Positions 11,471 through 55,105 of a stretch of 64,000 nucleotides of DNA are shown one piece after another; the stretch's first letter is position 1; the number at the start of each line of letters is the position of its first letter. This DNA is from Zygnema cylindricum (Eukaryota; Streptophyta; Zygnematophyceae; Zygnematales; Zygnemataceae). A program made the translations under genes and the position numbers. The notes beneath the pieces were generated by a model. That model saw only the letters and a list, made by a program, of their open reading frames with translations, was not told the DNA's origin and did no database searches. The stretch is taken from assembly GCA_037447655.1 (NCBI GenBank), contig JBBHKE010000926.1:54496-118495 (forward strand), read 5' to 3'.

Positions 11471-11565
11471 ATCTTTTTTTTCTTCCGGTGGTTCATCTTG
11501 TGACGTCTCATCAAATGCAAGGAATGCCGCATTTTTAATCGGCAGTTTTGATGTCGGAAATTTTG

Positions 11566-16978: not shown

Positions 16979-18007
16979 AAGTCCTCAGAGTGGACAGCTT
17001 CTAAGAAGCCTCTAGGATAATCCTGACCCCTTTGTGTTTAAGCAGAAATAACTGCCACCCTGGCAGACAAAAACTCTGACCAACTTTACCCCTGTGAAGG
17101 CAAGACTCCCCTGAGTCGATAGCAAAAAGAATCTCTGAATTTGCTCCCCTGAGCAGTAAGTTATGGAGGGTCAAAGTTGACCTTTTGTACAGAAGCTCTC
17201 TGGGAGAGAGGGTCCTATCTTCTAATTTTTCTAAGTCCTATCTCTCTCACAAACTCTATCTACTGATGTACGGAACCAATCAGAATTGAGTTCCGTACGC
17301 AAAAGTACAGCTGCCGGTGTACTTTATGTACGGACATTGTACGACATGGCCAAAATGTCGACACATGTCAAATCCGGATTCGGTGCCATAATCTCCGGAG
17401 ATTCCACAATGCAACGGAATTTTGCCACGCGTCATCCGATGTGGCTATGGCCACAAACCGCCGAAATCTTCCTCCGCGATCTCGGCGCGAATTCCGGCAG
17501 TCCGATTAAATTCGGCTTTAATCGTAGCCGTAATAAATATATGCGCGGTATTTGTTTCATTTACGAAACAAATGCGCGGTACTGATTTGTGTCCGTACCG
17601 TAAGTCGTACATTATTTATTACTGGATCTATGTATCCCGTAATTCATTTCAGTTAAATGATTTATCGCACGTATACATATTTAAATAAATATCAAACTAT
17701 ATGCTATGTAACACTCCTGCTAGACTTAACGGCTAAGGCTACCGGCTATTTCCTATCTGCCGGCCGGTAGGTACATGGATCAAATCCTGCCGCCGGCACA
17801 TACCTTTTAATTAAATAAATAAACCCTAACATAAAATTCCCGTAAACCTCAGGATAGCCAAGGTAGCCATGGCTCTAGCTTCCTCTCCAATTTCTCAGTG
17901 ACTGCGACAAGTTTGAGAGTTGGAGAGAGAAGTTAGAGATAGACTGCCTCGACTTCTATATTTCTTTTCAGACCTAGAAAATACTAATAAAACCATTAGT
18001 TTCTACA
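16959..18007 (-). repeat. C2 5' LTR with adjoining primer-binding site
   Basis: Near-identical to 11566-12614. Immediately inside it (16944-16958) the sense strand reads GGTTATGGGCCCACC. This is complementary to the anticodon arm of the plant-type initiator tRNA-Met, as I recall that sequence. The gag ATG lies inside this LTR at 16978. The opposite-strand 99-codon frame is at 17286-17585. Confidence 0.9.
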
Positions 18008-27011: not shown

Positions 27012-28061
27012 TGTAGAAACTAATGGTTTTATTAGTATTTTCTAGGTCTGAAAAAGAAATATAGAAGTCGAGGTAGTCTATCTCTAACTTCTCTCTCCAA
27101 CTCTCAAACTTGTCGCAGTCACTGAGAAATTGGAGAGGAAGCTAGAGCCATGGCTACCTTGGCTATCCTGAGGTTTACGGGAATTTTATATTAGGGTTTA
27201 TATATTTAATTAAGATGTATGTGCCGGCGGCAGGATTTGATCCTTGTACCTGCCGGCCGGCAGACACAATGTAGCCGGTAGCCTTAGCCGTTTCATCTAG
27301 CGGTAATGTTACATAGCATTTAGTTTGATAATTATTTATATATGTATACAAGCGATAAACCATTTAACTAGAATTAATTACGGGATACATAGATCCAGTA
27401 ATATGTAATGTACGACTTACGGTACGGACATAAATCAGTACCGCGCATTTGTTTCGTAAATGAAACAAATATCGCGCATGTATTTATTACGGCTACGATT
27501 AAAGCCGAATTTAATCGGACGGCCGGGATTAGCGCCGAGATCGCGGAGGAAGATTTCGGCGGTTTGTGGCCATCGCCACATCGGATGACGCGTGGCAAAA
27601 TTCCGTTGGATTGTGGAAACTCCGGAGATTATGGCACCGAATCCGGATTTGACATGTGTCGACATTTTGGCCATGTCGTACAATGTCCGTACATAAAGTA
27701 CACCGGCAGCTATACTTTTGCGTACAGGACTCAATTCTGATTGGTTCCGTACATCAGTAGATAGAGTCTGTGAGAGAGATAGGACTTAGAAAAATTAGAA
27801 GATAGGACCCTCTCTCCCAGAGAGCTTCTGTACAAAAGGTCAACTTTGACCCTCCATAACTTACTGCTCAGGGGAGAAAATTCAGAGATTCTTTTTGCTA
27901 TCGACTCAGGGGAGTCTTGTCTTCACAGGGGTGAAGTTGGTCAGAGTTTTTGTCTGCCAGGGTGGCAGTTATTTTTGCTTAAACACAAAGGGGTCAGGAT
28001 TATCCTAGAGGCTTCTTGGAAGCTGTCCACTCTGAGGACTTATGGAGGTCTCAGAGTTTCA
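27012..28061 (+). repeat. C3 5' LTR
   Basis: Matches 32413-33462 with about ten differences by eye. It contains the gag ATG at 28042, 20 bp from the LTR end. The opposite strand keeps the family's 99-codon frame (27435-27734), and the sense strand is open for 110 codons at 27408-27740. Confidence 0.92.
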
Positions 28062-30084
28062 GGTTATGGGCCCACCCTCTAGGGTACCAATATTTAATGG
28101 AACTGGCTTCATATACTGGGAAAGTATGATGATAGGAGCTCTATGCGAAAAAAGGTTTTGGGGGATAGTGAGTGGACGATTGGGGCGTCCATCAAGTCTT
28201 GGAATTCCTCCAGGGTTTAAAGGAAGCAGATTCACTAGGAAAGAGGATTCACCTTCAACGGAGGAAACAAAGGAAGGAGAGGTGGTGGACAAAGGAAAGG
28301 AGAAAGAGGCGACCACACCAATAGCAACTGGTTTAGCATTCATGTCACCTATTCCGAGGAACGAGGAGAATGATACTGAAACCTGGGACTTCAACAATAT
28401 GGCGGCAAAGCACTTCATCCTACGCCATCTCACTCAAGGACTTGCATGTCCTCATTTGCAGGTAGAGAGGGCATCCGATCTTTGGATGGCTCTCATAGAG
28501 ATGTACCGAAGTGGTACGATTCAGCAACAACAGTTGGCTGATCAGAAAGTTAAGGAGTATGTATACAAAGGGGGAAATATGTTGGATTTTTGCAATGAGC
28601 TTGCTACACTCTTCATGGAGCTAGAGAGTGCGGGTAAAGTTTTTAGTGAAAAAGAAAAAGTTAACTGTTTACTAATGAAGTTACCTGATGAGTTCGAGAA
28701 CATAGTCAACCGTGTGCAGGACTTGCCGGACTCAAGGTGGATATGGAACTCAGTGGTAGGGATGATTCTCGTTCGAGAGAATACGATTGAGATCCGAAGG
28801 GGAGGAAAGAGTGGCCAAGCCTTGGCAACAGCGACCGATTGGAGGAACAAGGATTCCCGGAAACCAGTCAGAAACTATGGGGGTAGGGAGCGGGAAAAAC
28901 AGGTTGGCGAGTTCGAACCAAGGGCTCCCAAAGGTTTATGTCATTTTTGTAAGAAACCTGGGCACTATATGGCAGAGTGCACCAAGCTAACCGAGCTTCG
29001 GTTAAAGGAGGGGCAGACCGGTGGTACCCCGAGAGGAAAGAAAAAGGCCCTTGTCACACAGGTACTTGAGGCGGAATCCGAGGACGAGGACGATGAGCTC
29101 CTTTTGGATGAGGAGTTGGAGGCGAAAACTGAGGTTGAAATTCCACGAAGGCAGAAATGTGCTTACGGTGGATTGAAAGGTGAAGCAGGCTGGATTATAG
29201 ATTCAGGTGCCTCAATGCACATGTGTAAGGATAGACACCTGTTCACTAAGATAAGAAAGATTCCCACCGTAGAGATAGAGTACGGGGATGGGAGGATAGT
29301 CACCACTACTCTTGTAGGATCGGTAGATCTGAAAGTGTTAGTTGAAGGAAAGACATCCATATTAACATTCTCCGATGTATTGTTTATTCGGGAGCTGAAC
29401 AAAAACCTTATCTCTACATTAGTATTAGATGATAAGGGTTTTTTCACTAGCACTAGGGAAGGAGTCTTTACTGCTAGTTTTGAGGAGGATGTCTATTTCA
29501 TTGCTGAGAAAGGTAGCCATGGGATGTTTAGGCTGATCTTAAGTAATGAAACGAAGAAACTTTATTATGCTGGTGTTCATGATATTATGATGTGGCATAA
29601 GAGGCTTGGGCATGTGAATCTAGATAAGTTAAGAGAGATGAAAAAGATGGGAGTGGTGGAAGGGATTCAGTTCAGTGAGAGTGATGATATAAGTGATTGT
29701 AGTGGGTGTGCTCAAGGTAAAGCACACAGATTACCCTTTCCAAAAACAGCCACCTACAAGGGAGAAAAACTTCTAGATCTAGTACACACAGATATTTGGG
29801 GACCGGCTAGAGTGCCCTCACCGGGGGGGAAGAGATTTATGATGACTATAACTGATGATTGGTCTCGGTATTCCCGAGTATATTTTTTGAAAAACAAGTC
29901 AGAAGCTGAGGACTGTTTTAGACAATATAAAGCATGGAGCGAAAAACTCCATGAAACTCCAATCAAGAGAGTAAGGAGTGACAATGGTGGAGAGTATACT
30001 TCTAACCAGTTTGAGGATTTTTTGAGGGAAGATGGGGTTCAACACCAAAAGACAGTGCCAGAAAATCCTGAACAGAATGGGTAG
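28042..30084 (+). CDS. gag-pol: Copia Gag-protease-integrase (N-terminal part of C3 polyprotein)
   Basis: 680 codons. Gag capsid region spans residues 1 to about 295; CCHC zinc knuckle (CHFCKKPGHYMAEC) 300-313; an acidic stretch EAESEDEDDE follows; protease DSG 387-389. Next come the integrase HHCC finger (WHKRLGHVNLDKL through CSGCAQGKAHR), integrase Asp in VHTDIWGP and in RSDNGGEY. The frame ends at TAG right after PENPEQNG, just before the integrase catalytic Glu. C2 has four G residues at this place and C3 has three, so the stop results from a 1-base loss in a G run. The ATG lies in the LTR, so residues 8-12 are encoded by the primer-binding site. Confidence 0.93.
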   Translation: MEVSEFQVMGPPSRVPIFNGTGFIYWESMMIGALCEKRFWGIVSGRLGRPSSLGIPPGFKGSRFTRKEDSPSTEETKEGEVVDKGKEKEATTPIATGLAFMSPIPRNEENDTETWDFNNMAAKHFILRHLTQGLACPHLQVERASDLWMALIEMYRSGTIQQQQLADQKVKEYVYKGGNMLDFCNELATLFMELESAGKVFSEKEKVNCLLMKLPDEFENIVNRVQDLPDSRWIWNSVVGMILVRENTIEIRRGGKSGQALATATDWRNKDSRKPVRNYGGREREKQVGEFEPRAPKGLCHFCKKPGHYMAECTKLTELRLKEGQTGGTPRGKKKALVTQVLEAESEDEDDELLLDEELEAKTEVEIPRRQKCAYGGLKGEAGWIIDSGASMHMCKDRHLFTKIRKIPTVEIEYGDGRIVTTTLVGSVDLKVLVEGKTSILTFSDVLFIRELNKNLISTLVLDDKGFFTSTREGVFTASFEEDVYFIAEKGSHGMFRLILSNETKKLYYAGVHDIMMWHKRLGHVNLDKLREMKKMGVVEGIQFSESDDISDCSGCAQGKAHRLPFPKTATYKGEKLLDLVHTDIWGPARVPSPGGKRFMMTITDDWSRYSRVYFLKNKSEAEDCFRQYKAWSEKLHETPIKRVRSDNGGEYTSNQFEDFLREDGVQHQKTVPENPEQNG

Positions 30085-30125
30085 CTGAAAGGTTAAATAG
30101 AACACTAAGTGATAGTGCTAGAAGT

Positions 30126-32399
30126 ATGTTGTCGGATAAGAAGATAGGAAAAAGGTTTTGGGCAGAAGCAATGAACTGTGCTAATTACCTCAAAAATAGA
30201 GTTCTTACTTCAGCTATAAAAGATCAAACACCTTATGAGAGATGGACAGGCCGGAAACCAGACTTATCTCATTTAAAGGTTTTCGGCAGTCAAGTATTCA
30301 GTCTAGATACTGATCGGTCCAATTGGAAGCTAGATCCTAAAGGAAAACCGGGATACTTATTAGGATATGATGAGGATGTTAAAGGATATAGAGTTTATGA
30401 TCTAAAAAGAGAAGATATAATCTTAGTAAAGCATCTAGTAGTTATGGATGAAGGAAAGTCTGTGGATCCCTTCAAATATACAAAGTCAGTAAAAATCAGA
30501 TTTGAGTCAGAAAATTCTGATGACTTTGAGCTTCCTAACTATCCAGGTTTTAGAGACGATGACATTCTTGCAGGAACAAATCAGACCGAAAAGGACTCGG
30601 CTGTGGAAACTCCAGTGACAACTCTACTCGAAGCGGAAGACGTGGTGGAAATTGATTCGGAATCAAGGGATAGGGGAGAAGCCGAGTTTGTTCGAAAGAA
30701 TCCACGAGAACCATCTATTCCGGCCTCAGATTTTGAGGGAGGGAGGAGAAGTAGCAAAAGACTGCAAGAAAAACAGGTTAATAACAAGGTAACTAAACTA
30801 TCTCATCAAGATGAACCTCAAACTTATCGAGAGGCGATGACTTGTCCAGAAAGAAACCGGTGGAAGACAGCCATCAATGAGGAGATGGCTTCAATCATGG
30901 CAGCCGATACTTGGGAGCTGGTGGACTGTCCACCTAACCGAAAACCAATCAGTTGTAAGTGGGTTTTCAAACTGAAACTGAACCCAGACAACACAATCGA
31001 GCGCTACAAGGCCAGATTAGTGGCAAAGGGATTTACACAAAAGGAAGGAATTGACTACGAGGAAACCTTTGCCCCGGTGGTCAGATTTCCCTCCGTCCGC
31101 ATACTTCTCAGTTTAGCAGCGGCGGAAGACATGGAAGTGCACCAGATGGACATCAAAACAGCCTTTTTGCATGGAGAATTAGAAGAGGAGATCTTCATGC
31201 GACAACCCGAAGGGTTTGTGGAAGAAGGAGAGGAGAGTAAGGTATGCCGGCTGATTAAATCTCTTTATGGTTTGAAACAGGCGCCCCGACAGTGGAATAA
31301 GAAGCTTGATGAGTTTCTTACCGGTCTAGGATATATTCGGATCAGCTCAGATCACTCAATCTATGTTTTCGAAGATGAGGAAGGTTTTATATTTATTGCA
31401 ATTTATGTTGATGATTTGCTTGTTTTAAGTAAATCAATGGAAAAAATTAATAAACTGAAAACCGATCTTAAGGGGAGATTTGAAATGAAGGATATGGGGG
31501 AAGCAAAATATATTTTGGGAATTGAAGTAGAGAGAGACCGAAAAAGAAAAATTACAAGATTGACTCAAAAGGAAGCAATAGGAAACATGCTTGAAAAATT
31601 TCAAATGGATAAAGCTAATAGTTGTACAACTCCAATGGAATTGAAGAAGGGAAGTGAGGGGAGTGAGGAAGAAGGAGTCATAGTCTTAGACGAGGAATTA
31701 TCTCCTGAAGAACAGAAGTTCATGCAGACTATTCCTTACAGGCAAGTAGTGGGAAGTCTAATCTATTTTATGAATTGTACCCGGCCGGATTTAGCTGCAG
31801 CTGTAGGAGTGCTGAGTAGAAGTCTAAATGCTCCCACTAAGAAGGATTGGGAGGCAGCTAAGAGAGTCCTTAGATACTTGGTAGGAACTAGAGATCTATG
31901 GTTGCATTTGGGTGGGGAGAATACTGACATCACTACTTGGAGTGATGCCAGTTATGGTGATGCTCCGATGAGGAGATGTACTTCTGGATATGTATTATAT
32001 GTGGGTGATGGGGCTTGCTGTTGGAGTAGCAAACAGCAAAAGGTTATTGCTCAGTCCACCATGGAGGCTGAGTATATGGCCTCTTGCTCTGCTGTAAAAG
32101 AATTGATGTGGGTCAAGTCTTTGCTTGGTGAGCTTGGTCACCTTAAGAGTGGTGTGCAGAAAATATTTTGTGATAATCAGGCAGCAATCGCTATTTCTGC
32201 CAATCCTAAACACCATTTTAAAGCCAAACACATGGACATCAGACTCAGCTTTGTTAGAGAGAAAGTAGAAAACAAAATAATCAGTTTAGAGTACAGACCA
32301 GATAGTGAGATGGTAGCAGATATGATGACCAAACCTGTGCCTTCCCCTAAGCTAATTTTTTGCAGGGAGAAGTGTGGTCTGAAATTAAAGATTGACTAG
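30126..32399 (+). CDS. pol: Copia integrase C-terminus-RT-RNase H (C-terminal part of C3 polyprotein)
   Basis: 757 codons in a different frame from the upstream part, starting at an internal Met a few codons after the integrase catalytic region. Integrase C-terminal segment about 1-60; a variable acidic linker about 115-230 containing PSIPASDFEGG; RT from about 260 with FKLKLNPDNTIERYKAR, HQMDIKTAFLHGELEE and YVDD at 427-430; RNase H with TWSDASYGDAP, CDNQAAIAI and HMDIRLSFVREKV near the end. No internal stops. With the single upstream frameshift as the only lesion noticed, C3 is the best-preserved retrotransposon in the window. Confidence 0.93.
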   Translation: MLSDKKIGKRFWAEAMNCANYLKNRVLTSAIKDQTPYERWTGRKPDLSHLKVFGSQVFSLDTDRSNWKLDPKGKPGYLLGYDEDVKGYRVYDLKREDIILVKHLVVMDEGKSVDPFKYTKSVKIRFESENSDDFELPNYPGFRDDDILAGTNQTEKDSAVETPVTTLLEAEDVVEIDSESRDRGEAEFVRKNPREPSIPASDFEGGRRSSKRLQEKQVNNKVTKLSHQDEPQTYREAMTCPERNRWKTAINEEMASIMAADTWELVDCPPNRKPISCKWVFKLKLNPDNTIERYKARLVAKGFTQKEGIDYEETFAPVVRFPSVRILLSLAAAEDMEVHQMDIKTAFLHGELEEEIFMRQPEGFVEEGEESKVCRLIKSLYGLKQAPRQWNKKLDEFLTGLGYIRISSDHSIYVFEDEEGFIFIAIYVDDLLVLSKSMEKINKLKTDLKGRFEMKDMGEAKYILGIEVERDRKRKITRLTQKEAIGNMLEKFQMDKANSCTTPMELKKGSEGSEEEGVIVLDEELSPEEQKFMQTIPYRQVVGSLIYFMNCTRPDLAAAVGVLSRSLNAPTKKDWEAAKRVLRYLVGTRDLWLHLGGENTDITTWSDASYGDAPMRRCTSGYVLYVGDGACCWSSKQQKVIAQSTMEAEYMASCSAVKELMWVKSLLGELGHLKSGVQKIFCDNQAAIAISANPKHHFKAKHMDIRLSFVREKVENKIISLEYRPDSEMVADMMTKPVPSPKLIFCREKCGLKLKID

Positions 32400-34210: not shown

Positions 34211-34417
34211 TAGTGTTGTGTATAGGTAAAAACGTTATCGCGATAACACCGATACCGATAGTTATCGGTTATCAAAATGTCAAAGGTCTCGATATATTTG
34301 TACTTTTTGTACTTTATGTCTGGAGTACTTCCTGTCCGTAAACTGAACGGAAATTTTATGAGAAATGTACGGTTTTTTACTGGAAATGCACGGAGTTTGA
34401 TGAAAAATACGTCCCAC

Positions 34418-35727
34418 TGTCGTGCATGTGACCAAAAGGGATGGCAAACATGCAACACAATCAGCTGCAAAATAAATAATAAACAAATAAGCGAGAAAGT
34501 CATGAACATCTCAGAAAACGAGTGAGAATAATTATGTACAAGCAGTAAGCAGCAAATAAACATATCATAAGAAAAATAAAGGTAGAGTGAGAGAGGAAGT
34601 TAGGAGGCTCAGTTTATTATTAAGCCAAAGGATAGCCACTAGGCTCCTTGGTCAGTTTATATTCCTTACGAAGTTCAATAAATAAAGATTTAACTCAATA
34701 TCACAACACACCAACTGAAACTCTAGCAAACTGCGAGCAAATCTGAGATAACCAGAATTAGTCACACACGAAACATACGAGGAAAGCCAATTCTAATCTA
34801 GTAGCACGCAGTAAACCATACAAGCAAACCCAAAACTGTCCAATCACAATCTAGGGTTCAGCGAGAGCTTGAGAAAGAAGACCGAGCAGCAATCCACTTG
34901 ATAGGACGCGAGAAGAAGTGAAGGGAAATCGGTTAGGCTTCGGCGTGAGCCGCGTAGATTAATTTGTAGGGCAAGTTTACAAAGAAACAAAGTAAGAGCT
35001 AAGCAGCAGAACGCTCAATGACCAAAAAAGTAGTCACTAAAACTATCCTGACAATTGAACAAGAAAAATACTCAAAGTTTAGGTCAAATCTTCCAAAATG
35101 AGAATTCCTGTGCTCTTGAAATTGTGAGCACAGAATTCACCTAACATTCGCTAAGTACAAAGTCTACAGTTGAGAGTCTACCTTACTACGCCTACATGCG
35201 TTCTATGTAGTTGTTTGCGCTTAGTTTGGATTCTGGCCAATAGGCGACCAGAATCGTGTGCCTTACGTTACAAAATCTACAGCCTACGGATAAAAACCCT
35301 TCCTACGCTACATGTGAATATGTGCGACCTCCAAGGGTCCACGACTTAAAATGGTCCTGCGTGCAGTTCGCATCTGGACCGTCCATTCGTCTGCATCCTT
35401 TGTGGCCGTAGATTCGCGTTCGAATCCACGCTGGCGTCGACATCACTTGGAGTTGATGTTTCGGTTTGCGATCGTCCGTACATCGATCCAAACTGGTTGC
35501 GGAAATTTTGGCCGACGAAGTATGTTGGTTCGCCAAAATTCCCAGACAGACGGCTTCGCGGACAGAAACTGAAACTGTCCGCGGGTTTCAAGGCGTCAAC
35601 GACAATTTTTACGGTCTTGTCGCCACCGAAACATACCAAAATACAAATTAGTGTGGCATAAATTTTACAGACCGTTTATATGCGATTAAAATGCGGTTAA
35701 AATGCGACGACGTGATACGGCATGACA
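34418..35727 (-). repeat. Gypsy 3' LTR (1310 bp)
   Basis: Plus strand TGTCGTGCATG to CGGCATGACA. From about 34617 to 35727 it matches 44170-45284. The first 200 bp (sense U5 end) are absent from the 5' LTR but repeated at 35730-35930. Confidence 0.85.
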
Positions 35728-35729
35728 GG

Positions 35730-35930
35730 TGTCGTGCATGTGACCAAAAAGGATGGTAAACATGCAACACAATCAGTTGCAAAACAAATAATAAACAAAT
35801 AAGCGAGAAAGTCATGAACATCTCAGAAAACGAGTGAGAATAATTATGTACAAGCAGCAAGCAGCAAATAAACATATCATAAGAAAAATAAAGGTAGAGT
35901 GAGAGAGGAAGTTAGGAGGCTCTGTTTATT
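35730..35930 (-). repeat. Extra copy of the Gypsy LTR terminal 200 bp
   Basis: Nearly identical to 34418-34617, separated from the full LTR by only GG. On the sense strand the order is G9 purine tract, this U5-like block ending CACGACA, CC, then TGTCATGCC of the 3' LTR. Confidence 0.8.
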
Positions 35931-35945: not shown

Positions 35946-37145
35946 TTAGCCTGCCGAATAGCTAGCCAATACGAGTGGTAACTCCCGGCAGCCGTGACAA
36001 AACCAATGACCGTCTAGAACTGCTGTTAACGGAGGAACCAAACACTCCATGTGAAATCCTTCGTTGCAATGGTCGCATAGAAGCATTGATGTTTCTCCGT
36101 CGGCTCGGTTGCAAAGTGTGCATTCTGTAGCCTCAGTGATAGGCATACGCCTAGGGTCCATGTCTTCGGAAATATCCGGTAAATAACATGGAGCACAGTT
36201 CTTCGAATGCTCCTGCAAGGTTGGCGTATCTGCTCTTTGAAGTCCGAGCATGCCATTCGTGTCTACTTCGATTATTCGGAGAATATGAGGTGAAACATCT
36301 GTGTCCAAGGTATCGAAGGATTGGCGCCGTAAGTAGACATAATCTCCCACTCGATAAGGCTTCTGCTGGGGCCGGTAGCCGCCGCTGCGTGTAGTGGCAA
36401 AGCGCAAAGTATCTCTGTGCTGGGCGATTTGCAGGTTGTCAAAAGCCATGGGCATCTCTCGGGCAAAAAGCAACGCCCTGTTAGTAAGTTCTTCCAGAAA
36501 AACCCCGTCAGACAGTAAGGGAAGAGGAAAGCTTGCGGCTTTGTGGATATTCCTACCCAGCAAGGGTTGACGCCCAAATAAGACATAGTAAGCACTGAAA
36601 TTAGCAAGACTCGTATGTACCGACATTCGATACCCCATGGCAATATAGCCCAGTGACTCGTCCCACACTGTTATATGTTTCTCCAAGCAATGCTGGCGTA
36701 ATGCCCGCTTGAAGGTCTGAACTGCACGTTCTGCCAATCCATCAGCCCATGGATGATCGCGTCTTGTTCGACGATGGTCTATGAGAGCGTCATCTAGCAT
36801 TTATTGGAATTCTCCGCGGAATTCAGTCCTTTGATCTGTGAGGACTTCGGCTGGAGCGATGTATCTCATTAGGACATGTTCTTTAAAAGAAGCGGTGGTG
36901 AGCTTAGCAGTTTTGTTTGGTAACGCTACAACTTCAACCCATTTGCTAAAATTTTCAATCATGATTATTATATACTTTTTCCCCCTCCGAGACATCAGAA
37001 AAAGGCCTGTCAAATCGCACGACCAGCAGTAAATTAACCCCTTGATGGGTAATGGTTGGAGGGTAGTCTGCTGGTTGCTAAAAGAGGGATGTAGACGATC
37101 ACATATTGCAAACTTGTGCAATACCGCTGCGACATCAGATTGCAT
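35946..37145 (-). pseudogene. Gypsy integrase core with C-terminal PHD finger
   Basis: From the 5' side: integrase core with catalytic Asp in SCDLTG and LTDQRTEF (36801-37145), an in-frame TAA at 36801, then catalytic Glu at residue 24 of the 35946-36800 frame (GLAERAVQTFKR). An SH3-like C-terminal region (YRVGDYVYLRR) follows about residues 149-180. The last 60 residues form a complete C4HC3 PHD finger: C227, C230, C242, C245, H250, C253, C268, C271. The frame ends soon after, at 35946. PHD fingers commonly bind histone H3 tails; a targeting role in integration is inferred by analogy with chromodomains of chromoviral integrases. Stops make this copy non-functional. Confidence 0.88.
35988..36122 (-). 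other. PHD finger domain at the integrase C-terminus
   Basis: Spacing is C-x2-C-x11-C-x2-C-x4-H-x2-C-x14-C-x2-C, with the aromatic Trp two residues before the last CxxC pair (GHWFCHGC), as in canonical PHD fingers. All eight metal ligands are retained although the element carries stops elsewhere. It lies 4-16 residues before the end of the polyprotein. Confidence 0.88.
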
Positions 37146-37166
37146 CCCAGACCACCAATAGCGTGC

Positions 37167-38901
37167 CTACAGTAAGCTTAAGGTGGGCTTGGTCCCATAG
37201 TGACCCAGCTCGGAGTGAATTTGTTCAATCAACCAGAGGCGTTCAGTCGCGCGAGGCACGTGTCTGTGACTACTGTCCGCTAACAATCGAACTAGCGAAC
37301 CACCTAACCAAAGATAATTTTTAGCCCTTTTCTTTACTCGTTCCTCCTCCTCGGATGTAATGCGTGGTGGGAAGGCTTGTGAGGAGAGGAAAACAATTAG
37401 TGCTCCGTCTCGCCATGGATCCGGAGTAGAACGAGAGTGGGACAGCGATGCTAAAGAATGTGTGATATAAAATCCGGCTGACATAGTAGCTAAGTCGTAA
37501 TCGAAATCCTGCCGAACTCCATTGTCTGTGGTTCTTGGCAAAGGGTTTCGGGAAATGTCGTCTGCATTCAAACTAAGTAATCCTGGACGGTGAATTATTT
37601 CCACATGATATTCTTGTAAAATTAATGCCCAGCGCGCTAATTTTCCTGACAGTTTATCGTTGGTCATCTGCCAATGTAAAGGCTGATGGTCGGTTAGAAG
37701 AGTAAACGGTTTTCCGTAAATGTAGTGACGAAAGTGTACAATACCCCAAACTGCTGCAGGACATTCTCCTTCATAACTAGTGTAATTTGACTTCGCACGA
37801 TTATTACTCCTGCTTGCGTAAGCGACCACGTATTCTTCTCCTGTTAGTTCACGCTGAGTTAAGATGGCCGCAATGCCAGGCTTTCCGAAGTCTGTTTGTA
37901 GGCAGAAAGGTAATTTGTGATTAGGAGGTCGGAGGATTGGAGCACTGGAGTGGGCATCTTTCAACTTCTCAAAAGCCAAAATATGATCAGGTCCCCAAAC
38001 GAAAGGAACTTCTTTCTTGAGCAGATTGTTCAATGGTGAAGCGATAGTGCTGAAACTAGGGACAAATCTGCGATAATAATTAGCTAATCCTAGGAAGGCT
38101 CGAAGACTCGTGAGATCAACGGGGGTTGGCAGTTTGCTGATAGCCTCGGTTTTTGCTTCAAGTGGTGTGATTCCCTCAGAGGAAATGAAATGTCCAAGGT
38201 AAGGCACACCCACGGACACGAAAGTACATTTAGCTGGATGACATTTTAATCCGACCTTTTTCAGTTCTGTTAGGACCCATTCAATATGAGTTGTGTGATC
38301 TTCGATTGTGGAGGAGGCGATAATCAAATCATCGATATAACATCGTGCAAACTTGCAACCACCTAAAACTAAATCCATTACTTTTTGAAAAACTGCGTGG
38401 GTGTTCTTAAGTCCAAAAGGCATGACAGACCACTCCCAATGACCATCACTACCCCAAAAGGCGGTTTTATGCCTATCCTTCTCCTCTATTTCAATCTAGT
38501 TAAAGCCTTGTCGTAAATCCAGAATACTGAAATATTTAACGCCTCCTATATGATCAAATATTTCTTCGGCCAATGGCATTGGATGTCAATCATTTATCGT
38601 TCTAGCATTGAGTTCCCAGTAATCGCCGCACATCCGACGATCGGTAAAGTTTTCTTTCGGCATCTTTTTTCCTGGGCATGACAGTGGGTGCTGCAAAAGT
38701 AGAATCCGACCGATAAATGAGGCCAACTTCCTCCAGTTCAGCGCAGCGTTGGTCCACTAATTCCCATTCTGTTTCGGATAGGCGGTGTTTCGGCTTGAAA
38801 ATGGGACGATCGTCTTCAAGATCTATAGACATTTTATAGGTGGTATGGAGACCAAGATCATTCATAGAGAAAGCCAAAGCGTCGATATTTTGAAGAATCA
38901 T
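37167..38901 (-). pseudogene. Gypsy reverse transcriptase, RNase H and integrase zinc finger
   Basis: The N-terminal RT piece is at 38602-38901 (FKPKHRLSETEWELV, AAPTVMPRKKDA). A frameshift follows near 38660. A segment with two in-frame stops (about 38450-38600) still reads as GDYWELNARTIND and YFSILDLRQGFN. Then 37167-38423 holds MPFGLKN, YIDD (residues 29-32), GLANYYRRF and RNase H-type LLTDHQPLHWQ. After that come HRPGLLSLNADDISR and the start of the integrase finger (IHSELGHYG). An in-frame TAG near 37167 separates this from the integrase core. RT motifs are Ty3/Gypsy-like. Confidence 0.88.
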
Positions 38902-38919: not shown

Positions 38920-39588
38920 TTAAGATTGAGAGAGATTAGAGCCAAGTTTCCATTTAGGAGATTTCGAACCTTTAATCGTCATTGCTTCCATGGCTTGTGC
39001 AAAAGCTAGTTGTTTATCCGCGATAAGTGACTGACCTAATGAGTAAACAACCGGTGTTTCTTGTAAGCAGTTTGTCCAATGGTGCCAGCTGCGAGTAGGA
39101 AAGGCTGCAGTCCAGTGAGGAGGTGTTGACATATGAGTACAGGGAGCAGATTGGGCAGCAGTATATGCTGGAATGGACCATGACATGTGGCTAAGGTTTA
39201 AGAAATCGTAGACTGTGACATCAGGAGAAGGTTTTATAGAGGATGGGAAAAGGAAAAATTGAGAAGGTGTCCCTCTAAGGGTGACAATGTGTTTAGAAAT
39301 AGGTGGTGCATCCCCCCCCCCAACTGGTTGAGACGGATGGGTTTGTGCGTAACGACCTGCTGCAAATCCGAGGCCTAAGACAAATGAGAGGGATTGAGGG
39401 TCTATGACACGACCTAAAAGGATGCAGCGTTGTCGTTCTGTGAGACCATGGGCAGCCGTAGTGTTGGGAAGGAAATGCATAAGGTGTTCTCGTTCTGTGG
39501 CTGTAGGTTCATCTAGGCCGCCTGTGTGAATATTTTTGAGCAGGCCAGGCCCATCACCAGAGAAGGCGTGAGAGTGTGGATAAGACAC
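38920..39588 (-). pseudogene. Methyltransferase C-terminus plus linker to RT (Gypsy)
   Basis: 222 codons in the frame that continues past an in-frame TAA at 38920 into RT. Residues 30-76 contain an EREHLMHFLPNTT, GLTERQRCILLGR, VIDPQSL series. It resembles the DNMT3 C-terminal region, where a short target-recognition segment is followed by an RQRLLGRSW-type motif and the last strand. The rest, to the RT, is a linker with no recognised domain. A frameshift near 39590-39600 separates it from the preceding methyltransferase piece. Confidence 0.75.
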
Positions 39589-41144
39589 TAGAGTGGGGAG
39601 AACTTTGAGTGGTTGGCCTGAGACGTTAATGTTGTAATTCGGTGGGTGATCAGGCTGCAGACAGGTTTGGACTTTGTGAAAAGGAAGAGTGCAGTCCGAA
39701 TATCTGTAAAAGGAGGTTTGACAGAAAGATTTCCTTCCCCAAGGCGTCCAATATCAATCAAGTTGGTCCATTTAGATCGAACCCGATGAGCTAACGACCC
39801 GTGACGAGCAGCATCAATGATAAGAGGAGGACCAATTAATGCCTCTATCCGCTTGTAATCAGCTAACACTGTAGGTCGATGATCGTTATAGGCTACCACG
39901 TTTTCTAGAATATATCCCAATGGGCGATCGAAAGATTATAAAAAATGCATGATACAAAGTAATTCAAAGAATAATTTGGTGCGGGGATCAGCTAAGCCGA
40001 GACCTTTGCTTGCTCGTGACATTCCCTGACACTCCCAACCGACAAAGAGAAGATCGATTGGTTCTACATAGAGAAGGTGTTGGTTTCCTATCAAACGAAT
40101 ATCTTGAGGTAATGCTGTATGCATGTGAGCAAAAGCGGATTTAGGGAAAATATGTGGATATTGTCCGTGTAAAATATTACAGTGATGTTTTTGGGCTTTC
40201 CGAGCTAAAGGGTCAGTGTCAACTGAGTAGTACTGTTTGATAAGTAATCTGTTGCGAAGGCATGAGAGTAGAGAGGTACCTATGCCTGCGAACAGGTCTA
40301 AAATGACTAGACCATCTTGATGAGGTTTTACCTGAATTGGTTTCCAATTAATGGGAAGAAATCCGGAAGGATCTACAGAAATAAGAGGCAAAGGTGGAAC
40401 CCGCGATAAAGGAATCTGAAGTGTGTGTTTGTAGATGTGATCGAACTCGTGAGAATCGATAATAAAACCCGGATTATCGAAAAGTTCAGGCAAAGAAGGA
40501 CTATCGGGAAGAATTTCCTCTGCGGAAAGAGAATGAAAAAATTCAAATCCCACCAAATTTTCGGAACAAGCAAGGACAGATTGGGATGCGTGCGCCATAA
40601 TGGGCATGGATTGGCGTGCAGAAATTAGAGGGAGACAAATTTTCTTTTCCGGATAATTGGTAGGACGGGAGGAAAAAGTTTGATCGTACATATCAACGCC
40701 GCCTCCTACTGTGAAAATCACATCTTGCCCTACTAAACACTCGTAATCACTACATTTGGTGACCAATGCGTGTGCACGAACTTCCGCAAAATCAGATTCT
40801 GTACCATTTTGAAACCTAAAGCAGAGTGGATCCTTCGTAATGCCCAAAACTGGTTTGGTTGTTTCCGCTGAGGTGAGTAAACGTGTGGAAGTGGACTGGA
40901 GTTTATCAGCTGTCAGACCTAGTTTCAGTGCAAAAGATGACCCCAAAATAATTGGTTTTGCACCGGTGTCCATAAGTGGTAATGACGGTACGACACCATT
41001 GACTGAAAATGCACCCTTCCCATTATCTAGAAAACTGATGTGTGGGTCAAGTGAACTACGCTCGTCGGTAGAGATAAGCCTAAGAGCGTCAAGATTACGG
41101 TTCATTTGTAAAGCCTGTAATGCTGCAAATGGGATGGATGTCAC
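39588..41144 (-). pseudogene. Gypsy aspartic protease fused to DNMT3-like C5 cytosine methyltransferase
   Basis: The first frame (39936-41144, 402 codons) has a retropepsin-like DTG at residues 59-61. Methyltransferase motif I DLFAGIG is at 283-289 (SAM binding), a YYSVDTDPLARK segment at 305-316, and motif IV WECQGMS with candidate catalytic Cys372. GLADPRTKLFFEL follows, matching the GLYEGTGRLFFEF region of DNMT3. After an in-frame TAA (39936) the same frame continues 39588-39920 with DRPLGYILENVV (motif VI) and IDAARHGSLAHRVRSKW (motif VIII, like the DNMT3 IDA-AHRARYFWGN region). The predicted role is cytosine methylation of DNA; RNA or RNA/DNA-hybrid targets cannot be excluded. The copy is interrupted. 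Confidence 0.87.
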
Positions 41145-41162: not shown

Positions 41163-41882
41163 TTAATCGGAAATCATAGTAGACAAAATGCATAATCTTT
41201 CTTTAACCCTATGGCTGTCCTGAATGGAGCGGTCAAGAATAATGAGTGCTTCCGCCGTGATGGTGGAAGCTGTTTCGGGTAAATTGGTTGTGGTTTCTTT
41301 GGAAAATGATAATGGTAGACGTGTGCTACTCTGTTTACCCTCGCGATTGTGATCAATTGTCCCCTTGTCAAACGTGGTTGCCCTCTTTTGAATGGTTGAA
41401 TCTCGTAAAACTCGACCTGCTAGCGTGGGCAGGTGGACAACTATACGAGCCATACCAATTAGGTGAGTGGACGGTTTCATTTGAGCCATAAGGGCTACAA
41501 ACTGGTCTTTAATCATAGCGACCATTTGGTCTTTAATCATAGCGGCCATTTGAGTTTGCATTTCCTCTCTCTCTTTTTCTCTCCGAGACAATTTAGGTGA
41601 AGAGTTTTTTTCTGACTCTTTATCTGGTTGGACTACTTTGGCAGATCTAGCCGGTATGCCACCATTTCGAATCTGATTTTGATATGAAAATTCAGGGTTT
41701 TTGATGTGACAACGATACACAAAGTGGCCAGTCTGTTTGCAGTGTGTACAGGTCGCACATTTATCCGGGCACATCCGAGCATCATGCCTGATCTTGCCAC
41801 ATCGGAAACAAATCCGATTGGATGGTTGATTTGGTGGGGTTCCCATAGCTGGGACTCTTGGTGGCCGATTATTTGGCCCCAA
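41163..41882 (-). pseudogene. Gypsy nucleocapsid region with two CCHC zinc knuckles
   Basis: Two adjacent knuckles near residues 17-55: CFRCGKIRHDARMC and CTHCKQTGHFVYRC. These are the nucleic-acid-binding motifs of Gag nucleocapsid. A Lys/Glu-rich segment with a repeated MIKDQ(M/F)VA(M/L) stretch follows. The frame ends at TAA (41163) only a few codons upstream of the protease frame and in the same phase. This stop could be a nonsense mutation or a Gag/Pol boundary. Confidence 0.8.
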
Positions 41883-42072: not shown

Positions 42073-43071
42073 CTATCCAACAAACTTTTGGACAGCTTCG
42101 GCATCTGATATGAAATCGGGTAACGCTTCCCGCAAGGTCTCCATGCGGTCTCTTAAACCGGGAGCAGTTTCGCCCGGTTTACGCTCAAAATTCATTAATT
42201 CCTTAACTTGGTCAGGATTCTGTATGCGATACTCCTCTTGTAACAAATTAAACATTATGGTGAGAGGGTCTCGTAACAGAATAGTCATCCCGCGTTGTGC
42301 CGGGACGGCGGCTCGGGCTGCAATGGCATATTGGTGGGGAACCTCTGCTAGAGCTTTTTAAATAACATTGCTAAGCGCATCTTAGACCTATGGAATAGCA
42401 GCTTGATAAGGAATTTCTGCTTGACCTATTACCTCAAGCATACTAGGAAACTGTGGAGAATATTCGGTCATCGCAAGTATGCCATCATACTTGCGGGAAT
42501 ATAAGGTAAGGGCGGACCCGCGAAGGTAACGCCCGAGAAGGGAGAAAGCGACACGCATGTCAAATCTATCTTGATAAAGGAAAACTAGATCTCGCATTTC
42601 AGTGTCGAATAGCATTCGAAAATGAGATAAACTCATGGTATCCTTCATTCCGGAAAAGCAGAATTGAAGTTTACCAGGAGTACCCTCCGATGTGGAGGCT
42701 ATAAAAAGAGACGAGTTAGTCAAATTCAAAGCCTGAATCGGTGCTAACGGAAACCAAAAAGAAAGAAAATTTGAATTGGGTTCCCTTTCGTTATCAACCT
42801 CTTCCACAGATAGCGTGGAAAGAATGGATGACAAAGATGAGAGAGTGGTTAAATCTGAACGGGAAGAAGACGCTATAGATTCGATTAAAGGACTTAACGT
42901 CAAAGAAACCAAATTTGATAAATTCGATTGATCAAAATTTGAGGAAGGGAAAGTTCCACCACTACGTGTAGATCTGTATGAGTGGTCAAGATTCTCCCAA
43001 TCAGTGGGCATAAAAATGACTGAGATAACAACTAATCCGCTAATGGATACGCCCAATACGAGGTGCAACAA
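42073..43071 (-). pseudogene. gag: Gypsy Gag capsid region (interrupted)
   Basis: Two open pieces in the same phase, 42388-43071 and 42073-42288, are separated by three in-frame stops. The second piece (LQEEYRIQ, VKELMNFERKPGE, LRDRMETLREALP) resembles the retrotransposon gag capsid C-terminal segment with its RKPGE-type motif. The first is Ser-rich at its start, then LYQDRFDMRVAFSLLGRYL. A further frameshift lies between 42073 and the zinc-knuckle frame. Start uncertain. The 5' leader (43072-43700) has no recognised motif. Confidence 0.7.
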
Positions 43072-43699
43072 ATGCTAAACCATACCACATACGTAGGCAA
43101 TAATCTCAAACAGTCTCTAACAATGCCACGATGGCCAGATGTAGTCAAGAGGCCGCTTTTACGGAAACCTCTACCCTGCAAACGAGTGGGCAAGGCCAAA
43201 GGGCCAGATCTATAAAGGGTGAAACTTGCTAACAAGCACCCGGAGGTGCAAATCTAAAGCTCCACAGGCAGAAAATAGTTCTATCCAAGGCCACCAACGG
43301 CCAGATCTAACAATAAAATTCCACGCCAAACAGACAACAAGAAAAACACAAGGCCACTCACGGCCAGATGGCAAGCATGGAAAGCGTGGACAGTGCAAGT
43401 GCTCAATACAATTAGGTCCAAGTGAACCCAATCCACTCATGTACCCTCTACACGATCAACAACTATCCTGACAAGCGCTTGCACTCACAAGGCATCGTGA
43501 ACTTACAAACCACTCTTAGCGATCTGGCAATTGCCAAGGGTGAACAACGGTTGTTCTCTCCAACCGGAGTTTTGCAGAGCTCCCAAAAACGAATCAGCTC
43601 CACTATCTCCAGTCCAAATTGTCGAGTACACACCACAACTCAATTACCAACTTAGTTAGTAGCCTGTTAAGGCACGCGTATCAGCACTATGCCACGCTC

Positions 43700-44169
43700 C
43701 GCCCGTCTATAAAGCAATAGTAATTTTATGTGATAAGTCGTGCAACCTAATATATATATTTATATATATCTTAGGGGTGTTTTTTTTTTTTTTTTTTTTT
43801 TTAAAGTTTGCTAGGTTTTCTGAGTGAGTTAATCCGGTAGGAAAAAATAATAGAAAACGATACCGGATAGTTCAGCAATCTCAGATTTAACAACTCAAAA
43901 ACAAACTAGACAACAAATGAAATAAAAACAAAACATGGCAAAAATTTAAACATGCATACAAAAACTAGATAGAGAAACCAATTGACACAAGGAATAACGA
44001 ACCTTTGAAAAATTGACAATTTCAAATTGCAGAAAATGGAGCAAAACTGAAAATGTCAAATTGCAGTAAATAGATGAAAAATTGACAATTTCAAATTGCA
44101 GAAAATGGAGCAAAACTGAAAATGTTAAATTGTCGTAAATAGAAGAAAAATTGACAATTTCAAGAGCAC
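43700..44169. repeat. Gypsy 5' LTR border region with simple and 69-bp repeats
   Basis: Contains an AT microsatellite (about 43750-43770), a run of about 22 T (43781-43802), and a 69-bp tandem repeat starting GAAAAATTGAC at 44007, 44076 and 44145. It occupies the position where the sense U5 end of the 5' LTR should be but shows no similarity to 34418-34617. A primer-binding site could not be placed. Confidence 0.6.
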
Positions 44170-45284
44170 AAGAATATTAAGCCAACGGATAGCCACTAGG
44201 CTCCTTGGTCAGTTTATATTCCTTACAGGAGTTCAATAAATAAAGATTTAACTCGATATCACAACACACCAACTGAAACTGTAGCAAACTGCGAGCAAAT
44301 CTGAGATAACCAGATTTAGTCACACACAAAACATACGAGGAAAGCCAATTCTAATCCACTATCACGCAGTAAACCACACAAGCAAACCCAAAACTGTCCA
44401 ATCACAATCTAGGGTTCAGCGACAGCCTGAGAAAGAAGACTGAGCAGCAATCCACTTGATAGGACGCGAGAAGAAGTGAAGGGAAACTGGTTAGGCTTCG
44501 CCGTGAGCCGCGTAGATTAATTTGTAGGGCAGGTTTACAGAGAAAGAAACTAAGAGCTAAGCAGCAGAACGCTCAATGACCAAAAAAGTAGTCACTAAAC
44601 TATCCTGACAATTTCACAAGAAAAATACTCAAAGTTTAGGTCAAATCTTCCAAAATGAGAATTCTTGTGCTCTTAAAATTGTGAGCACAGAATTCACCTA
44701 ACATTCGCTAAGTACAAAGTCTACAGCTGAAAGTCTACCTTACTACGCCTACATGCGTTATATGTAGTTGTCTGCGCTTAGTTTGGATTCTGGCCAATAG
44801 GCGACCAGAATCGTGTGCCTTACGTTACAAAATCTAGAACCTACAGATAAAAACCCTTCCTACGCTACATGTGAATGCGTGCGACCTCCAAGGGTCCACG
44901 ACTTAAAATGGTCCGGCGTGCGGTTCGCATCTGGACCGTCCATTCGTCTGCATCCTTCGTGGCTGTAGATTCGTGTTCGAATCCACGCTAGCGTCGACAT
45001 CACTTGGAGTTGATGTTTCGGTTCGCGATCGTCCATACATCGATCCAAACTGGTCGCGGAAATTCCGACAGATGAAGTATGTCGGTTCGCCAAAATTCCC
45101 GGACAGACGACTTCGCGGACAGAAATTGAAACTGTCCGCGGGTTTCACGGCGTCAATGACAATTTGTACGGTCCTGTCGCCACCGAAACATACCAAAATA
45201 CAAATTAGTGTGGCGTAAATTTTACAGACCGTTTATATGCGATTAAAATGCGGTTAAAATGCGAAGACGTGATACGGCATGACA
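44170..45284 (-). repeat. Gypsy 5' LTR (U3-R part)
   Basis: Collinear with 34617-35727 (starting TTAAGCCAACGGATAGCC, ending CGGCATGACA) with scattered differences. It lacks the last ~200 bp of the sense LTR found in the 3' copy. Confidence 0.85.
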
Positions 45285-45943
45285 CCACTTTGTAGTACTT
45301 TCTGGCCGGTTAACTCCACAGAAATTGTACGGGAACGTACGACATTGTAGTGACAAATTGATGGTCATGGATCGGAAAAAGGACGGCGGACACAAAGTAC
45401 AACGGACGCAAAAGAACATTATGCGCGGCGTTGAAATCGAAAGGACGACTTTCAATGAGAAAATACGAGCGGACGGCCAGCTTTGGCGGCTTAGGCCAAA
45501 AATTAGACGGATTGACACGTGGCAGGTTTCCAGTGGATCTCAGGGAAGAAAATGACAAAGCCATGGCGCTGGATGTGAAAGGTACATCGTTTTAACTGGA
45601 GTCGTACTAAAGTCATACATATCTTACGCCGACAACTGTACTTTCGGCTTGTACAAATGATATGATCGGTAGGCACCTCAATAGATAGGGGTTGTGAGTA
45701 GGGCGCGTCGGGGGAATAACACGTACAGTTGAGTGAAATGGCTGTACATTTATATGTATGGTCCATACATATATCGCCGATAGTTATCGATATCGGTGTT
45801 ATTGCCGATAATAACCGATAAATATCGGTTATTTATCGGCGATAATACAGATAACGATATATCGTACCAATATATCGATTATCGGCTACCCAAAAAAAGG
45901 CCCATATTGGTTATCGGCAAATCCTTACCGATACACTACACTA

Positions 45944-53225: not shown

Positions 53226-54523
53226 TCACACTTTATCACAAAATAAAGAAACGTCAAATCTTCTTTCAAACGCCTCGTTTGTTGGATTGAAGATGACTTG
53301 CAAGGAATGGTGCCTCCCATCTATTCCGGTTTTTATGAGTGCATTATATCGTGGCTTCAATCGATTTTCAAGCGATAAGTTAAGAACCGCTGGGTACGAA
53401 GCCACATCCTCTAATGTGCATCCCATTTCGTTAACAAGAAACTCTAATTTCGGGTTGATGGTATCCCAAGAGTTGCCCACAAGTTTTGCTTGCACTTGCA
53501 CGATTTTCATGCATCTCTCTTTTCCAAAATGTTCAAGAAGTTGTTTGTATGTACATTGGATTGTGGAAAGAGGAGCTAAGAGAATCCCCGGGTTCTTCAC
53601 CAAAAGTCGTTGTGCAAAGTCAATGCCAAACAACTCTTGTATCCCATTGGCCCTTTCGTGCAAGACATGGCCTTTTCTACTGGCCAGAATGGGAAATTTA
53701 GAAAGGATATCTATACCAAGTTGATCGGGGAAATTCAAATTGATTGCCTCTATCCCTTCTGCCACAGTTTTCTCACTAACGCCAACATTGCTGGATTCTT
53801 CTCCACCAAGGAAGGAGTGAGACGCACACCAAGACTTGACCACAAATGCAATTTGGAATGAATAGTGGTTGGAAGTAAACTCAATATATTTGGGAAACGA
53901 CTCACAATTTTCCCCAAATTTTCCACTTTTAAAGTTTCTTGGAGATAGTTGAGTACCGACACGTGTCGCTCGTCTGGAGCGCAAAGGAAATGTTGCGATG
54001 GATTCGAATATTTCTCCAAAGCCTTGAGGAAGCAATGTGATTCGATTCCGTACGCACTGAAAATGGCAGCCTTCCTTAAAATATGTTGTTTGCCTTGTAC
54101 TGCAAGAGTTACTGATTTTTTCTTCAAATTTTTTTCTAACTGCGGCATAGAACACCCCAAGCTCAGCAAGATCCTTGTGAAGTCTGCCACGTCAGATTCA
54201 AATATTGTCGCTTCTGTAGTAACCTTTGCCACGTCAGCTTCGAGCTTGACCACGCCACGTCTTCGATTTGTGACGTGACATTTGTCATCCGCCACGTCAG
54301 CCTCCTCGTTACCCTCTCTTAGGGCCGGGAGTGGGCGGCGAGGGAGAGAGTTCAGTCCGGGGAACTTCTGACAGGAGGACAGGTGGCGGAGTGGTGATGT
54401 ATTAGGTTGTGGCACGTGTGGAGGGACAGCTGGCGGCTTGTTATAGGAGGGAGAGAATGAAGCGAGGAGACAAGCTCGAGAGCCAAAAAAAAGGTGGAGA
54501 AAGCTAAAGGAAGACCAGGCCAT
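53226..54523 (-). pseudogene. mTERF-family gene, copy B (one frameshift)
   Basis: The first frame (53750-54523, 257 codons) starts MAWSSFSFLHLFFGSRACLL, an Arg-poor hydrophobic and Ser/Pro-rich N-terminus compatible with organelle targeting. mTERF-like helical repeats follow (QLEKNLKKKSVTLAV; RFPNILSLLPTTIHSKL; LGVRLTPSLVEKNPAMLAL). A frameshift near 53785 moves to the frame ending at 53226, which carries LGIDILSKFPILASRK, GIDFAQRLLVKNPGILL, NPKLEFLVNEMGCTLEDVASYP and LSLENRLKPRYNALI. The total of about 430 codons is usual for a plant mTERF. A 1-base assembly error would restore a full gene, so pseudogene status is provisional. mTERF proteins act in organelle transcription, RNA splicing or translation. 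Confidence 0.8.
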
Positions 54524-55105
54524 TGGATTGCAGAGAGGGAGGGAAGGGAGAGGAGAGAGGAAAAGAGGTAAGGTTGAAGGAGAGGGAGGGGAAATTAAAA
54601 GGAAAGGAAGGTAGAGAAAGGAGAGGCGAAGAGGGAAACAATAATTTTTGAAATAAAGAATTTAAAACGTTTCAATATGGTCCATGGAAATTGACACGTG
54701 TGTCAAATACAGGAAATGATAATCACACTCGTCATTTTGGTTTGGCACAACCACCTACGTCAGCTTGTACGATATTGTATTTGAAGGTACATAATAGTAC
54801 AATTAAGATTGGGAGGCCAATATGTGGAGTACAATGTGTGTCGTTAGCACCGAAGATATTTTTATCGTCACTATAAGCATCTTTTCTCGTGCACACCTGT
54901 CGGAATTTTTTTTTTTTTTTTGCTGACCGGCAATCGGTCTTGTGGAATTTTGCCGCGAATTGTACTTTGTAAATGACGTCCGTCATGTGAATACGACAAT
55001 CGACATGCCTGTCCAAATGTTAGCTATAATACTATATTGTGTGGAGCACATGAAAAAAAAGTGCTTGACAGTTGACACAAACAACGCAAGTACAGAAAAG
55101 AAGTA
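54524..55105. other. Region upstream of mTERF copy B
   Basis: 54530-54650 is a purine-rich tract (GAGGGAGGGAAGGGAGAGG and similar) directly 5' of the start codon on the coding side. It could be promoter/5'-UTR sequence, but no motif can be assigned. A run of about 15 T lies near 54907. No gene recognised. Confidence 0.45.

Follow-up and report, generated by a model that had tools for sequence, protein, structure and literature searches.

Here we show that a stretch of 64,000 nucleotides of Zygnema cylindricum DNA (hereafter the window; C693:54496-118495, in a host genome of 352.8 Mb in 2,689 contigs) contains a decayed relic of a still young Ty3/Gypsy family, in whose pol polyprotein lies a methyltransferase domain with supported kinship to DNMT3. 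The reading that we prefer, and to which we assign a probability of about 0.5, is a joint one: a young Gypsy family equipped with DNMT3 and PHD modules would methylate its own DNA, would be targeted through its PHD finger, and would be inserted by an integrase cutting at a palindrome where repeats B and A meet. Methyltransferase-bearing Gypsy elements are not confined to Klebsormidium, domain relatives being found in liverworts and in another algal genus. Where enough flanking sequence is available, these relatives adjoin a protease, an RT or an integrase, and they occupy one of two places in pol.

A preliminary description, made from the letters of the window, had placed a DNMT3-like methyltransferase between the protease and the RT of a Gypsy pol. 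Reading of the open reading frames located every motif it named, on the minus strand and in the order claimed: ORF 41162-39939 (-) holds DLFAGIG and WECQGMS; past a stop codon (39938-39936 (-)) that frame continues with DRPLGYILENVV and IDAARHGSLAHRVRSKW; QRCILLGR stands in ORF 39753-38923 (-). The last lies in a different frame from DLFAGIG and WECQGMS, so the domain is interrupted by a frameshift (near 39.7 kb) as well as by the stop. The span first proposed, 39361..40313, was right in location but slightly short, the limits indicated by motifs, Pfam and a family profile being 39322..40352 (-). ORF 41162-39939 matches PF00145 (E 4.7e-5, 23.4 bits, cut-off 22), and Pfam gave no match for the other two methyltransferase pieces of the window. 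A chance match, conceivable from a single weak Pfam hit in this copy, was rejected because all three pieces are matched in order by the profile built from relatives (E 1e-44, 3e-19 and 1e-28).

The setting in pol also stood as described, with a protease motif upstream of the methyltransferase and RT/RNase H downstream. From the 5' side of the element (all features on the minus strand) these parts are an open frame in the gag region (42391..43074), for which Pfam gave no match; a CCHC zinc knuckle region (41709..41753; E 0.012, under the Pfam cut-off); an aspartic protease (40851..41006; DTGA at 40970, DTG 40970-40962; PF13650 E 0.0016, under the cut-off); beyond the methyltransferase, the C-terminal part of RT, in frame and with YIDD, together with RNase H (37608..38489; PF00078 E 5.8e-17, PF17917 E 1.7e-31); integrase remains in several frames with approximate limits (36690..37300; PF13683 weak at E 0.037, the rest inferred from the order in the intact copy described below); and a PHD finger at the integrase C-terminus (35988..36122; PF00628 E 8.4e-11). 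Further breaks occur elsewhere in the copy. The preliminary description had missed the PHD finger, the repeats in A-coding-B-A-B arrangement, the target duplications of 4 bp and a second family in the genome.

In the host genome, a PF00145 search returned at least 123 matches (123 scored, all above the cut-off, from 782 candidates), six of them in frames that run unbroken for over 1,100 residues. A search with the window frame comprising protease and methyltransferase yielded 102 scored matches, many with stops, out of 1,946 first-look candidates. The domain is not missing from other copies: 84 of the 102, the window included, span both protease and methyltransferase (query residues from 60 or lower to 380 or higher, counted by hand), which assigns the methyltransferase to a protease-adjacent place in the element. 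Sixteen loci of ten kb were fetched, nine of them window-like with the motif ECQ (type A) and seven with PCQ (type B or B-like). An uninterrupted version, which the preliminary description had proposed to look for, exists in L009 (on C1344), a natural single frame of 2395 residues in the order CCHC-DNMT-RT-RH-H2C2-rve-PHD; its protease region aligns without stops to that of the window, and Pfam is silent on the protease there. Frames of about 1,520 residues in L012 and L013 show DNMT-RT-RH-H2C2-rve with a weaker PHD match, under the cut-off; L013 has a DTGA motif in frame immediately upstream of the methyltransferase, and protease matches under the Pfam cut-off occur in L010, L011 and L016. 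The host copies thus have Gypsy-type RT/RNase H and an rve integrase in the order protease-RT-RNase H-integrase, with the DNMT inserted, and Pfam matched no tyrosine recombinase in the long frames.

The PHD finger is present in both families, type A and type B. In the PDB it is most closely related to PHF12, KDM5 (lid), BAZ2B, WSTF and PHF21A, and most such PHD fingers bind unmodified H3. By sequence, the finger is closest to readers of unmodified H3, and its own binding to H3 is putative. Chromoviruses are Gypsy elements with a chromodomain, a histone-reading module, at the integrase C-terminus; the present family resembles them in carrying such a module in that place and differs from them in that the module is a PHD finger, not a chromodomain. 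As a member of the class reading the unmodified H3 tail, the finger could direct the integrase to chromatin without active marks.

The DNMT3-like identity of the methyltransferase is supported by a PDB profile search, by the predicted fold and by phylogeny. With a profile of 43 domains as query, the PDB search ranked DNMT3A (E 1.5e-24) and DNMT3B (2e-21) ahead of 4onj (6e-12; titled only 'DNA methyltransferase', presumably plant DRM), DRM2 (2.4e-10), HhaI (8e-8) and DNMT2 (4e-6). The AlphaFold model of the domain (mean pLDDT 86.7) predicts a complete fold, and among the Foldseek matches listed (50 of 948) all are DNMT3A, DNMT3B or DNMT3C structures, some complexed with 3L. E-values start at 7e-18, and isolated domains reach TM-scores, normalised by target length, of 0.77-0.83. 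The motifs stand in unrearranged order and the fold is closest to DNMT3. In a 42-row tree, human DNMT3A (the one DNMT3 reference, on a long branch) and all retrotransposon domains share one side of a branch with 100/100 support, while HhaI, DNMT1, six viral-contig enzymes and two unplaced ones occupy the other; DNMT3A takes no resolved position within the retrotransposon domains, a placement compatible with one capture of DNMT3 or with two.

Acquisition of the domain from a phage or bacterium, instead of a eukaryotic DNMT3, appears to us scarcely credible. It would fit the bacterial MAG label (Candidatus Obscuribacterales) of P0001, the only homolog in the first search, and the 29 viral-contig loci that match parts of the domain at 28-53%; however, six of the 29 viral enzymes are among those that the 100/100 branch separates, with HhaI and DNMT1, from DNMT3A and the retrotransposon domains, and P0001 itself nests within the retrotransposon family in a 94-row tree, its contig having probably been misbinned. 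The substrate of DNMT2-type relatives is tRNA, and a domain that methylates RNA in place of DNA, be it the genomic transcript itself or a tRNA serving as primer, might be considered on that ground. The idea has been raised for LINE-type elements (PMC5890265, available portion), but the profile lies far nearer DNMT3 than DNMT2 (1.5e-24 vs 4e-6), and we hold it to be very improbable here.

The claim of DNMT3-typical motifs held for their order and for the catalytic Cys, but not for motif IV, which reads ECQ where DNMT3A has PCN. The PC dipeptide of this motif is EC in type A and PC (PCQ) in type B. The signature AHRxRxxW.N (motif VIII) is common to DNMT3A and the family, and occurs in 85 of 125 relatives, many of which are fragments. 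With Glu in place of Pro ahead of the catalytic Cys, the type A enzyme could be a DNA methylase no longer active, kept in pol for a structural or nucleic-acid-binding role. All ten type A sequences showing the motif have ECQ, type A copies lack CpG depletion (see below), and the Klebsormidium nitens domain had no activity in yeast, a result that its authors deem inconclusive (PMC5890265, available portion). On the other hand, type A domains conserve the Cys, ENV/ENI and AHRxRxxWTN, the predicted fold is complete, and ECQ is found in 21 of 125 relatives from both position clades (motif IV being absent in 29 of the 125), which marks it as a tolerated variant. Selection likewise speaks for function: in pairs with unsaturated dS, methyltransferase dN/dS stays well below 1, at 0.10-0.30 for type A copies and 0.12-0.41 for type B, with 0.04-0.37 for RT. 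We therefore regard loss of DNA methylase activity as unlikely. The sole pair above 1 is the window and L018 (dN/dS 1.74 over 137 codons, dS 0.034), as expected from the decay of a relic. Between L009 and L011, protein identity is 78% in the methyltransferase vs 92% in RT.

On the preferred reading of an active enzyme, the element probably methylates its own DNA. The pol-embedded methyltransferase would act on the cDNA of the element or on the fresh insertion, and new copies might then resemble silent host DNA rather than foreign DNA. CpG depletion, sought as a mark of self-methylation, was not seen in type A copies (observed/expected 0.88-0.92 vs 0.93 for the whole window), which accordingly bear no trace of long self-methylation; ratios are lower elsewhere, at 0.62-0.63 in type B and 0.49 and 0.69 in two Copia elements. 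In the A repeat pair of the window, 32 of 39 transitions fall at CG or CHG (background 43%, p 7e-7), a sign that cytosines of this copy were methylated in a plant-like host, with no indication of the author of the modification. The excess is weaker or nil in five other pairs (C1915 5/6, C829 0/3, C2602 9/18, C1374 5/12, C449 37/68; backgrounds 37-52%).

Several copies are young. The A repeats are identical over 931 nt in C1344 (100%), 99.5% alike in C1915 and 99.6% alike over the part fetched in C829, which points to recent insertion of all three; such near-identical repeat pairs in host copies make it testable whether DNA methylation benefits the element. It has also been put forward that retrotransposon methylases slow the element to the benefit of the host, or serve against rival elements or viruses (PMC5890265, PMC6338049, available portions); the young copies argue against strong self-limitation, and for this family we rate the proposal as improbable.

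The ends of the element are its two unlike repeats, A1 and B2, in place of two identical LTRs. On the minus strand of the window, A1 (the 5' LTR-like part, 44175..45284) starts with TGTCATGC at 45284 and is followed in the leader by a short tandem repeat (44006..44163 (-)); after the coding region come B1 (35730..35930), immediately behind a PPT-like G run, A2 (34618..35727), and B2 (34418..34618), the 3' end, which terminates in CATGCACGACA. A1 and A2 are 94.7% identical over 1111 nt and B1 and B2 97.0%; the B1|A2 junction reads GACACCTGTC in the window (35724..35733 (-)). The element starts with TGTC and ends with GACA, giving CA-3' ends, and flank reading shows a target duplication, GTGG in element sense, on the 5' side (45285..45288) and on the 3' side (34414..34417). 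A simple two-LTR model, under which the target duplications were not convincing, was abandoned once a second repeat, B, was found past the 3' repeat.

Flanks were read for eight type A copies besides the window and for two type B copies. The complete A-coding-B-A-B plan occurs in the window and in type A copies C1344, C1915, C829, C449 and C2602; C1407 ends in B-A-B, its A1 not having been found, and no paired repeats of this plan were seen in the fetched stretches of C783 and C2577. Type B copy C1374 follows the plan with B present three times, and no clear repeat pair was found in the fetched stretch of C544, also type B. Exact 4-bp target duplications flank six of the eight type A copies for which both ends were found (the window, C1344, C1915, C829, C2602 and C1063), and in the other two, C449 and C232 (the latter with an atypical 3' end), three of the four duplicated bases match; C1413, whose 5' end lies beyond the fetched piece, is outside this count. 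The flanks of C1374, the one type B copy read for this feature, show no target duplication. The 4-bp duplications indicate that a DDE integrase inserted the copies. A run of at least nine G stands directly or two bases before B1 in all six copies inspected, and the TGG of a tRNA-type primer site is absent directly after A1.

Outside the window the B1|A2 junction is the palindrome GACAGCTGTC, in each of the seven further copies read, of which one is type B. The junction was the only part of the repeats searched genome-wide at the DNA level; with up to two mismatches, 434 sites were found (238+196) and none with a reversed control. Of 100 listed junctions, 19 are preceded on their own strand, at a distance of 2-7 kb, by a methyltransferase match (0 and 0 in two controls), and the remaining 81 have no listed methyltransferase match nearby, the 207 methyltransferase places used in this comparison being a lower bound. 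Some junctions may belong to related elements without the domain.

Repeats are more alike within copies than between them, B pairs being 95.7-100% identical within (seven copies) and 73-95% between copies, and A pairs 89-100% and 74-96%, so that as a rule both A and B appear to be renewed in each cycle. The near-duplicates C1344 and C1407, with 100% identical B, are an exception among the between-copy values. C449 is another exception, its A1 being 89.4% identical to its own A2 vs 96.2% to the A1 of C2602. In this copy (L011/L033/L034), A1 and A2 are about 80-89% alike, B1 and B2 95.7%, while its methyltransferase and that of C2602 are 99% alike; the combination suggests, by sequence comparison, a chimeric copy formed by template switching.

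The family raises the question of how split repeats arise, without a tyrosine recombinase, in an element that has a DDE integrase and target duplications. In the mechanism that we propose, reverse transcription would yield a normal element whose LTR equals B+A, the G run ahead of B1 serving as polypurine tract; the cDNA ends would then join or become permuted, the integrase would cut the palindrome GACA-GC-TGTC within the LTR, removing GC, and insertion with 4-bp duplications would produce A-coding-B-A-B. The arithmetic is exact: an LTR of B+A with joined ends, cut at GACA|GC|TGTC, gives this plan with CA-3' ends. We infer that the integrase cuts circular or permuted cDNA at the B|A palindrome. 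The main rival is a PAT/DIRS-like course, in which no circles form: A and B are restored by transcription and template switching, and what integrates is a linear cDNA that has TGTC/GACA ends. We consider it a serious contender, though with the odds against it. A-coding-B-A-B is the plan of PAT elements; as far as the available portion of PMC4157794 describes them, PAT and Toc of the DIRS group have split direct repeats A1-B1-A2-B2 and a tyrosine recombinase. The Klebsormidium element, too, is described as DIRS-like (PMC5890265, available portion). The window family, however, encodes an rve integrase whose use the 4-bp duplications indicate, and shows neither of the marks of DIRS/PAT elements, a tyrosine recombinase and the lack of a target duplication, the former being absent among the Pfam matches of its long frames. 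In addition, a palindrome with two extra bases resembles a joined-end junction.

Outside the host, successive protein searches returned one relative, then at least 84 (query included), then at least 44, the best approximately 8,000 candidates having been scored in each of the last two. The named sources are Marchantia polymorpha, Calypogeia fissa, Closterium sp. NIES-53 and NIES-54, and Klebsormidium nitens; one EukProt entry and one bacterial MAG are added to these, and the remainder are metagenomic or without a name. Among 128 proteins, judged by placeable domains, the DNMT precedes RT in 10 and follows RNase H in 18 (17 of the 18 with integrase parts after it), precedes integrase parts alone in 8, and is the only placeable domain in 92. 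The Marchantia proteins show a protease motif ahead of the methyltransferase and no RT in that frame. The two positions correspond to two groups, supported at 98 in the 94-row DNMT tree, 100/100 in the 42-row DNMT tree and 99/98 in a 33-row RT tree; in the DNMT trees an upstream protease motif was labelled as first position (in the 42-row tree also grouping with such proteins), and 39 of the 94 rows fall in neither group. On these sequence criteria, elements whose methyltransferase follows RNase H and precedes integrase form a second, separate clade. The PHD finger is found in 16 of 16 proteins of the RNase H-DNMT-integrase order with an rve core, and in one of six DNMT-RT proteins with an rve core, P0088, which both the DNMT and the RT tree give as the nearest outside relative of type A. 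In P0117, a metagenomic pol, a PHD finger and a chromodomain are both listed beside the methyltransferase.

Elements of this kind have been described before, as the preliminary description noted for charophytes and dinoflagellates. According to the available portion of PMC5890265 (de Mendoza et al. 2018), KnitGypsy-Dnmt3 of K. nitens has a DNMT3-type domain in a Gypsy pol frame, under purifying selection, and its repeats are called DIRS-like (A-coding-B-A-B), with Gypsy domains, in a figure legend; SymbioDIRS-Dnmt3 and SymbioLINE-Dnmt of Symbiodinium are retrotransposons with cytosine methyltransferases, the DIRS type being A-coding-B-A-B. The window family shares with KnitGypsy-Dnmt3 the DNMT3 in a Gypsy pol and the DIRS-like repeats, and its DDE integrase sets it apart from the tyrosine-recombinase or LINE machinery of the Symbiodinium elements and from the tyrosine recombinase of PAT and Toc, as do its 4-bp duplications from the latter. 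The K. nitens protein P0119 (KFL_009030040), presumably the published element, has the order DNMT-RT-RH-integrase and falls in the RT tree, like the window, on the side where DNMT precedes RT; its sequence is distant from that of the window element, and neither a PHD finger nor a protease motif was found in this protein, which is annotated as partial. The available portion of PMC5890265 describes neither target duplications nor the junction palindrome, and in the main text of that paper no word begins with PHD, protease, split or Marchantia. PMC12344493, in its available portion, cites retrotransposon DNMT3s without details of a PHD finger, second clade or repeats, and among open-access titles and the opening parts of abstracts we recognised none on PHD fingers in such elements or on target duplications of split-repeat Gypsy elements. 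Relative to the available portion of PMC5890265, the PHD finger, the RNase H-DNMT-integrase clade and the repeat anatomy are new, the kind of element itself being known.

In host DNMT3, an H3-reading finger and a methyltransferase are likewise joined in one protein. A wider reading, which we offer tentatively and with considerable doubt, is an old green-lineage Gypsy clade combining a methylation writer, a reader of unmodified H3 and a DDE integrase acting on circular or permuted cDNA by a cut at the palindromic junction within its LTR; such an element would install silent chromatin at its insertion site, convergent with host DNMT3.

The window also holds Copia elements and a gene. A Copia pol of 1157 residues occupies a single frame at 8114-11584 (-) and carries, from integrase to RT, a run of in-frame repeats that are nearly identical (RSCDAAKLESCDAAKL...). 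Another pair of Copia elements, similar by eye and of one family, lies in opposite orientations at 28036-32396 (+), nearly intact in two frames, and 13902-16984 (-). A Copia frame on C82 (L018:7949-9901 (+)), which starts like the copy at 28036, lies a few kb from a type A element. Finally, an mTERF-like gene, likely a host gene, is found in two overlapping frames at 53226-54661 (-) (PF02536 E 4.4e-20 and 6e-4).
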